From Holdemania sp. Marseille-P2844 (lineage in GTDB: Bacteria; Bacillota_I; Bacilli_A; Erysipelotrichales; Erysipelotrichaceae), in the NCBI RefSeq assembly GCF_900120005.1, contig NZ_LT635451.1:186001-250000 (forward strand): a stretch of 64,000 nt of DNA. The letters are read 5' to 3'. The number at the start of each line of letters is the position of its first letter. Positions within the stretch are counted from its first letter, which is position 1. The position numbers and the translations under genes were made by a program. The notes beneath the pieces were generated by a model, which did no database searches, was not told the DNA's origin, and saw only the letters and a program-made list of their open reading frames with translations. Positions 55,344 to 58,725 of the stretch are shown one piece after another.

Positions 55344-56270
55344 GTGGAAAGCGGCCCTCACAAGCATTTCCTAAAACCAGAACAGGAAGTTAGAAATTAT
55401 TATCTGGCACTTTTATATTTAGAGAATAAGTTGAAAAAAAAGGAAAAAGTTACAAAAAGAATGATTTTGGAAGTTCAGGCGATCGTGGAAAAGGGAGCTT
55501 CCAAAGAAAAAATAGGATTGCGGGGGCCCATGCCGGCAGGCGTTTTATTTGCGGTTTATGATTCTTTGAGCGGGAACGCGGATTATATTCCGCCTGAGTA
55601 TATTGATGTTCCGATACTGCTTGATGAATTGGTAGACTATCTTGATCATACTGATGATCATCCGTTGTTGATCGCGGCGATTGCCCATTATCAATTAGTT
55701 ACAATTCATCCATTTGAAGATGGGAATGGTCGAACGGCAAGATTGATTTCTGGATATCTGCTCGATTATTTTGGATATGGATTTCAGGGGATTGGTTCGT
55801 TAGAAGAATATTTTGCTTATGATGCAGAAGAATACTACAATTCCCTGCAAATGGGGTTGCCTGCTTTATATTATTCAGGCAGAAATAATCCGCCGCATCC
55901 AGAAATTTGGCTTACTTATTTCTTAAGAATGATGGAGCTTTACTCAAAGAAAGTTTATGATTTGTCATATAAAACAAAGGAAAGTAATGTTGTTTCGAGC
56001 TTGACCTATTTGAAAAAAAGGGAGAAGGAGCTGCTTAGTTATTTGTTTGAAAATGGAATTAGAGAATTTACTCCGATTGAACTTGGAAAAAAATTAGGAG
56101 TTACCAATAAAACGGTTATCAACAGAGTTGCTGGTCTTGTTCAGCACGGATTTCTTATTCCGGTATTAGTCAATGAAAGAATACGTTCTTATCAAATAAG
56201 CGAATTAACGAAGGAGAATGAAGAAGAAATAATCAAGCTTCAGCATGGGTTGCAAACTAAGAAAGCATAA
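55344..56270 (+). CDS. Fic-domain AMPylase-like protein, N-terminus apparently truncated
   Basis: 308 residues from a GTG start. The Fic core is clear: AAIAHYQLVTIHPFEDGNGR, TARL near residue 128 with the catalytic His and the anion-binding loop. A C-terminal winged helix follows (FTPIELGKKLGVTNKTVINR). Fic enzymes transfer AMP, or another nucleotide, onto protein hydroxyls. Family members of this layout normally carry about 60 more N-terminal residues with the inhibitory (S/T)xxxE(G/N) helix. Here the frame closes at a TGA 9 bases upstream of the GTG and no such motif is present, so autoinhibition may be lost. Base composition is markedly AT-rich, suggesting transfer. Confidence 0.8.
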   Translation: MESGPHKHFLKPEQEVRNYYLALLYLENKLKKKEKVTKRMILEVQAIVEKGASKEKIGLRGPMPAGVLFAVYDSLSGNADYIPPEYIDVPILLDELVDYLDHTDDHPLLIAAIAHYQLVTIHPFEDGNGRTARLISGYLLDYFGYGFQGIGSLEEYFAYDAEEYYNSLQMGLPALYYSGRNNPPHPEIWLTYFLRMMELYSKKVYDLSYKTKESNVVSSLTYLKKREKELLSYLFENGIREFTPIELGKKLGVTNKTVINRVAGLVQHGFLIPVLVNERIRSYQISELTKENEEEIIKLQHGLQTKKA

Positions 56271-56585: not shown

Positions 56586-56627
56586 ATAAAAATCAGCGGG
56601 GGAAGGTTTATCTTTCCTCGCTGATTT
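56586..56627 (-). terminator. Terminator of the bilQRS-like operon
   Basis: AATCAGCG...CGCTGATT with an extended imperfect inner stem. On the minus strand it is followed by TTTTTATTTT. It lies 13 bases past the flavodoxin stop. Confidence 0.85.
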
Positions 56628-56639
56628 CAGGTTTGCGGT

Positions 56640-57152
56640 TTATTGGAGTTCTGTCAAAATACGCTGGGCAAATTGCCGGCCACCTTCAAGATTTGCGCTG
56701 TCCGGATGCGATAAAGCGGCGTCAAAGTTCTCCAGCAGGGAAGCCCAGCGCGGATTCTCCGGCTCTTTTGCCTGCAAGGCCAAATACCGCTGTTTAACGG
56801 TTTCCGGCATTCTTCCCTGGCAGGCGTAGCAGCCCAAGATCGTGTTGTCGGCAGGAACTTGATCGGCGCTTCGCTTCAGGATCGCCTGGAAATATTCGTC
56901 CGACTGGCCAAAGCCGCAGGTCGCAAACAAGGCCAGCTGCTTCTGATGACACTGGGCCAAAAAATCCAGGACCGGCTTGGCGAAGACGCCTTTGTCTGTC
57001 CAGGAACCGACAAAAATCAAGTCTGCCTGCAGCGCTTCAGGCGCAGGCGCTCCGGAATAAATAAGCATTTCGTCCGGCAGGGCGGATTGAATTGCTTCTG
57101 CCAGCTGACGGGTATTGCCGGTATTACTTTGAACTACGATTGCGATTTTCAT
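56640..57152 (-). CDS. bilS: Flavodoxin-like protein, likely BilS
   Basis: 170 residues. The FMN-phosphate loop SNTGNTRQLAEA is at residue 9, followed by FVGSWTDKGVFAKPVLDFL and FATCGFGQSDEY, typical of short flavodoxins. It is the third gene of a MarR-OYE-flavodoxin operon and its ATG overlaps the stop of the OYE gene (ATGA). In the bilirubin reductase system of gut Firmicutes, a flavodoxin-like protein (BilS) is encoded directly with BilR and is thought to help electron supply. The flavodoxin call is firm; the BilS role rests on context. Confidence 0.8.
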   Translation of the reverse strand: MKIAIVVQSNTGNTRQLAEAIQSALPDEMLIYSGAPAPEALQADLIFVGSWTDKGVFAKPVLDFLAQCHQKQLALFATCGFGQSDEYFQAILKRSADQVPADNTILGCYACQGRMPETVKQRYLALQAKEPENPRWASLLENFDAALSHPDSANLEGGRQFAQRILTELQ

Positions 57153-58255
57153 TGGATATCACTCCTTTTCTGATCATAAATACAATGAATTCCCTGATGG
57201 CTCATCAAACCTTGCAGACATTTTTGATTGCAGCCGGCACAATACCGGATCGTTTCCGGATGACCAGCCAACAGTTTCGCGGTCCAGTCGGGATCAGCGA
57301 TCAGCTGCCGGCTCATTGCGGCTGCGTCGATCCGACCGCTTTCGATCGCCTGGTCGATGAATTCTGGATGGCGCAGATTCCCGACGCCGATCACTGGTTT
57401 GCAGGTCAGCGCTTTGACTTGATCGGCAAATTTTAGAAAACAACCTTCCGCGGAAAACGCCGGGTGATTCGCGGGCGGAATCGTGTCGGTCAGCGCGCCG
57501 TGATTCGCCAGGGTGACGTGGAAACAATCGACGCCTGCCTGTTCCAGCCAGCCGACGACCGGATCCAGATCCTGTTCCAGCACGCCCGCTTTGCCATAAT
57601 CCGGATTGATCTGCCGGACGGCCAGCTTGTAGTCGATGGGCAGCGAGCAGTGCTGCCGGACCTGCCGCACTGCTTCCAAAGCAAACCACATCCGATTTTC
57701 CAGACAACCGCCGTATTCGTCGGTCCGCTTGTTGATCAGTGACGAACTGAAGCTGCCGATCAAACGATCGCCGTGTACCTGAATCATATCGAAGCCCGCG
57801 GCCTGAGCCTGCTGGGCGCTGAGACCGAAAGCCGCAAGGATTTCGCGAATCCGTTTTTCACGCATTTGATTGACCGTGACCGCGGCGGAGTCGTTCAGTT
57901 TCTGACGCAGCTGATCCGCGGTGAGTCTGTGTGTCAGCAGCGCGGGAATTAATTTCAGCATCGCTTTGAAATTGGCGTCTGAAAGATGCAGCTGGGCGGA
58001 TACTTTTGCGCCTTGTTGATGCAGCTCGCTGATCAGCTGCCGGTAAGCGGCGAAAGTGCGGGGGTTTTGTAAACTTTGGGAACCGAGAACCGGGATATCC
58101 GGCAGGATGATCAGGGCGGTCTGGCCCTGAGCGATCGCGCTTAGCTTCGCGGCTTTTTCTTCCGGCTTTAAGCCCAGGGTGGTGGGGGCAAAGATGATCC
58201 GGTTTTTCAGTTCACATTTGCCGATGGTGATCGGCTTAACGCAGGCGTGCGTCAT
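57149..58255 (-). CDS. bilR: Old Yellow Enzyme-family reductase, likely bilirubin reductase BilR
   Basis: 368 residues: an OYE/2,4-dienoyl-CoA reductase-type TIM barrel binding FMN. The motif VHGDRLIGSFSSSLINKRTD, EYGG begins at residue 160. It carries Asp163-Arg164 where most OYEs have a different residue pair; an Asp-Arg pair at about this position is reported as a hallmark of BilR. The C-terminus keeps the Fe-S motif C-x2-C-x3-C-x11-C (CAGCNQKC...HC) and then ends, lacking the NAD/FAD domains of full dienoyl-CoA reductases. It is translationally coupled to a MarR gene before it and a flavodoxin gene after it, as in bilQRS. The predicted reaction is bilirubin to urobilinogen. Without an alignment other enoate substrates remain possible. 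Confidence 0.8.
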   Translation of the reverse strand: MTHACVKPITIGKCELKNRIIFAPTTLGLKPEEKAAKLSAIAQGQTALIILPDIPVLGSQSLQNPRTFAAYRQLISELHQQGAKVSAQLHLSDANFKAMLKLIPALLTHRLTADQLRQKLNDSAAVTVNQMREKRIREILAAFGLSAQQAQAAGFDMIQVHGDRLIGSFSSSLINKRTDEYGGCLENRMWFALEAVRQVRQHCSLPIDYKLAVRQINPDYGKAGVLEQDLDPVVGWLEQAGVDCFHVTLANHGALTDTIPPANHPAFSAEGCFLKFADQVKALTCKPVIGVGNLRHPEFIDQAIESGRIDAAAMSRQLIADPDWTAKLLAGHPETIRYCAGCNQKCLQGLMSHQGIHCIYDQKRSDIQ

Positions 58256-58674
58256 TTTTCACTCCTTAAGCTCAGGACAACCTGACTTAAAAGCGCAGTT
58301 AACTGTTTCGCTTGATCCGGTGAAAGACAGGCCAGCGCCCCCTGCTCCCATTGCTGGTTGGCGACAGTGATTTCCTGGCAGATCTGTTCGCCTTTTTCGG
58401 TTAACGAAACGGTGAACGCCCGGCCGTCCTGCGCGCTGCGCGTGCGGATCAAACAGCCGAGCTTTTCCAGCTTGTCTAAACAGCGGGTGATGTGGCCGTT
58501 ATCCTGACGCAGCTTTCGGGCCATGGCGGACGGCGTACAGGCGCCGGTATGCTCAAGATAGATGAGATAAGGGAACAACCCTACGGTTAACCCGAAGGCA
58601 TCCAGCCGCGTTTGCAGCGTGGACGTATATTCCCGGCGCAGCTGGCAGATTAAATATGAGAAAGGATAGGACAT
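58252..58674 (-). CDS. bilQ: MarR-family regulator, likely BilQ
   Basis: 140 residues with the winged-helix MarR fold: CTPSAMARKLRQDNGHITRC (recognition helix region) and KLEKLGCLIRTRSAQDGRAF (wing with the D-x-R motif). It is first in the operon, and its stop overlaps the OYE start (ATGA). AGGAGGTG precedes the ATG. A 17-bp perfect palindrome covers the -35 box of its promoter, so autorepression relieved by a ligand is likely. The ligand would plausibly be the reductase substrate or a related aromatic compound. Confidence 0.82.
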   Translation of the reverse strand: MSYPFSYLICQLRREYTSTLQTRLDAFGLTVGLFPYLIYLEHTGACTPSAMARKLRQDNGHITRCLDKLEKLGCLIRTRSAQDGRAFTVSLTEKGEQICQEITVANQQWEQGALACLSPDQAKQLTALLSQVVLSLRSEK

Positions 58675-58695
58675 AAAACACCTCCTGACTTCTTC

Positions 58696-58723
58696 AGTAT
58701 AAGCATAAATTTGACTAAGTCAA
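58696..58723 (-). promoter_or_regulatory. bilQRS-like operon promoter
   Basis: Minus strand TTGACT (58723-58718), a 16-base spacer, and TATACT (58701-58696), 22 bases before the MarR ATG. Confidence 0.75.
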
Positions 58724-58725
58724 AT
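58709..58725. promoter_or_regulatory. Putative MarR operator
   Basis: ATTTGACTAAGTCAAAT is a perfect 17-bp palindrome (8-bp arms, one central base). It overlaps the -35 element and the spacer, the classic position for MarR-type repression. Confidence 0.7.

Follow-up and report, generated by a model that had tools for sequence, protein, structure and literature searches.

How do gut bacteria switch on the genes with which they reduce bilirubin? The question is raised by a locus in a Holdemania species, where three genes resembling a known bilirubin-reducing system stand behind a palindrome. The bacterial reduction of bilirubin in the gut affects serum bilirubin and jaundice, and E. coli gained the activity when supplied with bilRS of C. 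difficile, bilRS of C. symbiosum or bilR of R. gnavus (PMC10769871). In our literature search we found nothing on how bil genes are switched on, and no paper giving an operator or a function for BilQ; the first-pass annotation had likewise known of no operator described for this system. The window referred to below is the whole stretch of 64,000 nucleotides that was analysed (1-64000).

The operon bilQ-bilR-bilS spans positions 56640-58674 on the minus strand. The first gene, bilQ (58252-58674, minus strand), codes for a MarR-family regulator of 140 amino acids (NCBIfam NF045593, 150.9 bits with a cut-off of 125; Pfam MarR, 2.7e-10). It is followed by bilR (57149-58255, minus strand), coding for a predicted short-form OYE bilirubin reductase of 368 amino acids (NF045592, 506.5 bits, cut-off 425; Oxidored_FMN, 1.8e-38, residues 7-332), and by bilS (56640-57152, minus strand), coding for a flavodoxin of 170 amino acids (NF045594, 194.4 bits, cut-off 155; Flavodoxin_3, 2.4e-41). 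The bilQ/bilR and bilR/bilS junctions are both 4-bp overlaps (ATGA), in agreement with the earlier description of a MarR, an OYE and a flavodoxin gene coupled on the minus strand, and the proposed bilQRS gene set and order is upheld by all three products scoring above their equivalog cut-offs. Directly 3' of bilS lies a stem-loop with a T tract, a predicted intrinsic terminator (56589-56628, minus strand) consisting of a long G+C stem and then TTTTTATTTT, with a fold of -20.1 kcal/mol (z -5.3 relative to shuffles). By its predicted products the operon is a further example of the already known bilirubin-reducing bilQRS gene set. It is adjoined by a gene for a Fic-family protein with an HPFEDGNGR motif (55344-56270, plus strand).

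A close relative of this operon is found in Holdemania filiformis DSM 12042, in which BilR is 97.6% and BilQ 89.3% identical to the window proteins. Set against H. filiformis (L001 5582-6004), the window BilQ (58252-58674) shows 89% identity and BilR and BilS about 98%, so that the regulator is diverging faster than the other operon members. The identity of the window BilQ to BilQ proteins outside Holdemania is only about 27-34%, and the ligand of the Holdemania protein therefore need not be common to them.

The assignment of bilR was examined at the level of motifs and of a tree. The sequence HGDR is found at residues 161-164 of the protein, with Asp163-Arg164 where the first-pass annotation had placed them, and it corresponds to residues 164-167 of R. 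gnavus BilR, of which a DR-to-AA mutant was tested (PMC10769871). In an alignment with E. coli dienoyl-CoA reductase (1PS9) the segment comes to lie next to that enzyme's catalytic region. The Cys4 motif CAGCNQKCLQGLMSHQGIHC begins at residue 339; the last residue is 368 and an NAD/FAD domain is missing, also as first described. In a maximum-likelihood tree, constructed without C. difficile and R. gnavus sequences, the window BilR belongs to a short-BilR clade of 21 members (support 100/100) which includes C. symbiosum ATCC 14940 (L006), a different strain from the one assayed in the paper. All HGDR proteins form a clade of 24 members (support 100/99). HGDR is present in 24/24 members of this clade and in 0/6 of the OYE paralogs from the window's own genome, which all six fall outside it, and the window bilR codes for the only BilR above the cut-off in the 3.68-Mb genome. 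The two checks proposed beforehand, the tree placement of the 368-aa protein and the alignment of its Asp-Arg pair, thus both came out in favour of BilR. It may be mentioned that in a Butyricicoccus MAG (L013 6001-7123) bilR is broken into two open reading frames of 122 and 258 amino acids by a frameshift or an assembly error.

It could be argued that Holdemania has a reductase which resembles BilR and acts naturally on another compound. OYE enzymes are promiscuous, the identity to BilR of C. symbiosum ATCC 14940 is 49%, and neither of the two main papers names a member from Holdemania. We nevertheless find this improbable, with a score above the BilR equivalog cut-off, with HGDR and Cys4 kept, and with operon partners and an operator as in C. 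symbiosum. Bilirubin reduction is the preferred reading, and its expected product can be specified. According to a 2026 preprint (PMC13252198) BilR on its own saturates both methine bridges and stops at divinyl-urobilinogen, biliverdin is also a substrate for it, and reduction of the vinyl groups requires BilV, an OYE protein with the motif AHAH. We looked for this four-residue motif, by which the absence of BilV was judged, in the OYE proteins recognised in the genome, eight in number (assembly 96.6% complete), and found it in 0/8. Since no AHAH OYE protein was recognised, divinyl-urobilinogen would be expected rather than full urobilinogen, which agrees with the figure of only 0.4% of species with a short bilR that also encode bilV (PMC13252198). 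Of the "complete" bilirubin-to-urobilinogen system originally proposed, the bilQRS set is there; the step to full urobilinogen goes too far.

Upstream of bilQ is the predicted BilQ operator (58709-58725), an exact palindrome ATTTGACT-n-AGTCAAAT with 8-bp arms (58709-58716 and 58718-58725) that are 100% complementary around a 1-bp centre. The operator encloses the -35 sequence TTGACT (58723-58718) of the promoter (58696-58723, minus strand), and the -10 sequence TATACT (58701-58696) comes after a spacer of 16 bp, so the palindrome is as perfect, and lies as squarely over the -35, as first reported. The exact sequence TTTGACTNAGTCAAA occurs once in the 3.68-Mb genome and there are no sites with one mismatch. 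A second, degenerate box in this promoter (AAGTCA after the -10) was considered and no claim is made for it.

A TTGACN3GTCAA palindrome which contains a -35 hexamer might in principle have arisen by chance in an otherwise ordinary promoter, and some of the counts in Holdemania point that way. With at most one mismatch the pattern has 9 sites in the window, all but the operator lying elsewhere, where 1.9 are expected from shuffles; genome-wide the looser box has 3 sites and its reversed control 5, and the strict pattern is also at control level. A wider regulon in the same genome was rejected, as the two other WNTTGACN3GTCAANW sites are not linked to bil genes (one of them, L133, lies within an open reading frame). 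Against this stands a comparison between promoters of different MarR genes. We collected 29 bilQ genes, of which 25 came from searches of whole genomes and from named relatives and four from the neighbourhoods of bilR genes, and removed close duplicates; the control was 41 MarR genes from the same genomes or relatives which score below the BilQ cut-off. When the 150 bp before each gene start was searched for TTGACN3GTCAA with at most one mismatch, the box TACTTGAC-N3-GTCAAGTA was found in front of 28/29 bilQ genes and 0/41 other MarR genes (Fisher p 1e-18), while dinucleotide shuffles of the bilQ promoters gave a mean of 0.12 boxes and a maximum of 2. This contrast speaks for the MarR-operator prediction made at first pass and against coincidence. 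It should be noted that the bilQ loci, where related, do not count as fully independent cases; their promoters nevertheless differ outside the boxes.

The arrangement of the boxes points in the same direction. The consensus is ATACTTGAC-WWA-GTCAAGTA, and the palindrome's outer pair shows symmetric covariation (26/46, as compared with 19.0 in shuffled sequences, p 0.0075). About half of the loci have two copies, and their distance is 27 or 28 bp in 16/16 promoter pairs, a fixed spacing hardly to be expected of chance boxes. The -35 is part of the first copy, and the second, downstream, shares its first base with the end of the -10; Holdemania retains one copy, the one on the -35. The -35/-10 geometry of its promoter is common to nearly all other bilQ promoters.

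Boxes are also found where bilR stands without a linked bilQ. In three genomes with bilR on another contig than bilQ there is a box just upstream of bilR (L121, and L122 and L123 with two copies each); a fourth such bilR, of the long form (L118), has no box upstream. The bilS-bilR pair L005 has a box as well, and no bilQ was found on that contig, and in L115 a bilQ-bilR operon encoding a long BilR of 648 amino acids has the box too. The strict box occurs only a few times per genome, and boxes at these bilR genes are therefore unlikely to be there by coincidence. Taken together with the bilQ promoters, they make a chance origin of the palindrome very improbable indeed. We conclude that the palindrome is a conserved, predicted BilQ operator, and the boxes at unlinked bilR genes make its tie to the predicted BilQ targets well supported, as judged from sequence.

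How could such an operator control the pathway? We propose, with considerable confidence, that bilQRS is repressed by BilQ at the -35 palindrome and released by a bile pigment, giving one transcript and divinyl-urobilinogen as the product. When bile pigment is absent a BilQ dimer would sit on the palindrome over the -35 and exclude RNA polymerase, and bilQRS would be off, including bilQ itself. Both the exclusion of polymerase and the autoregulation are predicted from the position of the site over the -35. A bile pigment (bilirubin, biliverdin or a close tetrapyrrole) would then bind BilQ and release it, whereupon the three genes would be read into a single transcript that stops at the stem-loop behind bilS. 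From the domain make-up of the proteins, BilS would pass electrons to the Fe-S/FMN of BilR. For Holdemania, we infer in this way the binding of BilQ, repression, ligand and electron flow, and likewise bilirubin as substrate and as inducer.

Operons in related bacteria suggest that BilQ may have further targets. Five box-bilQ operons encode a protein of 182-184 amino acids in place of bilR, located behind bilQ at L102 5949-6500 (minus strand), L104 7111-7662, L106 6915-7469, L107 7231-7779 and L113 6703-7254. The protein has no NCBIfam match, and among four scanned against Pfam three gave weak CpeT matches below the cut-off (E 0.006-0.08). Its sequence profile matched no chain in the PDB, and matches were obtained by comparison of folds alone. 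In structural comparison the AlphaFold2 model (pLDDT 90.4) came closest to CpcT, a phycobiliprotein lyase (4o4o; Z 17.4 with an rmsd of 2.9 across 170 residues), followed by CpcT with phycocyanobilin (4o4s, Z 17.1), by CpeT (5hi8, Z 16.2) and by CRL of plants (Z 15.4), the next rows being well below these at Z about 11. A predicted CpcT fold under a box-bilQ promoter suggests a wider bile-pigment regulon. A common fold with CpcT is no proof of bilin binding, but the association of this modelled fold with the promoter of a bilirubin-pathway regulator is striking. In those gut Firmicutes that have no bilR, the protein, which would be soluble and is in some operons accompanied by a gene for a small membrane protein, would serve to bind, carry or sequester bile pigment from the host. 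That BilQ senses bile pigment, has an operator dedicated to it and controls a regulon reaching beyond bilirubin reduction to a bilin-binding CpcT/CpeT-fold protein outside phototrophs is a reading whose chances we regard as evenly balanced.

Some observations on this family should be added. It is not tied exclusively to BilQ, as it also occurs, with no box, in about nine further genomes of the order, and it was rejected as a part of the window system, the window's genome having no homologue. G035 (L152), the sole same-genus genome without a BilQ above the cut-off, carries a CpcT-like gene without a box. A small hydrophobic protein of 108-109 amino acids, probably a membrane protein and with no family above its cut-off, recurs in box-bilQ operons (L007 7102-7431, L100 7802-8131, L107 6893-7219, and L102, where it has 109 amino acids and adjoins bilQ).

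The same operons bear on the nature of the signal. Two genomes with CpcT-like operons, G111 and G145, possess a bilR at another place under a box of its own, and three others (G040, G316 and G766) have no BilR match at E 1e-70. The existence of several genomes with bilQ and box and without bilR means that bilirubin reduction is not the only thing to which BilQ is linked. The ligands of MarR proteins are often assorted aromatic or amphipathic compounds. The palindrome might thus be the BilQ operator while the signal is biliverdin, a reduction product, a bile acid or another amphipathic stress compound instead of bilirubin. That BilR also acts on biliverdin (PMC13252198), and that some box-bilQ operons encode the CpcT-like protein where bilR is missing, fits this reading; the recurrence of BilR, BilS and the CpcT-fold protein under the box argues against it, linear tetrapyrroles being the known substrates of BilR and the ligands expected for a CpcT fold. 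We consider it possible, if on balance somewhat doubtful, and keep a bile pigment as the preferred inducer.

As far as the literature searched shows, the new part is the palindrome as an operator that recurs before bil genes in many gut bacteria. With a conserved operator and a fixed promoter geometry the induction of the pathway by bile pigment becomes directly testable, and the box offers a DNA signature for further bile-pigment genes, with the CpcT-like protein as the first candidate. Holdemania, a genus of the human gut, joins the predicted bilirubin reducers.

The system most like the one in the window is the bilQRS set described by Hall et al. (2024, PMC10769871) in Clostridium symbiosum and Clostridioides difficile, which has the same three genes in the same order, with a short BilR carrying HGDR and Cys4, a flavodoxin BilS and a MarR-type BilQ. 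The C. symbiosum ATCC 14940 locus (L006) has the operator twice and Holdemania has it once; C. difficile was outside the loci examined. Compared with the two-enzyme BilR/BilV pathway (PMC13252198) Holdemania has the BilR with HGDR and no AHAH OYE was found, so vinyl reduction is not predicted. Among solved structures the best sequence match of BilR is E. coli dienoyl-CoA reductase (1PS9), which shares the OYE barrel and the Cys4 Fe-S motif; the window BilR, however, is without the C-terminal FAD/NADPH domains and has HGDR where the dienoyl-CoA reductase has its own catalytic segment. MarR-family operators over the -35 are, like that of Holdemania, 17-19 bp palindromes that overlap the promoter of the operon to which the regulator itself belongs, whereas the predicted operator TACTTGAC-N3-GTCAAGTA, found at 0/41 other MarR genes in related genomes, is tied to BilQ.
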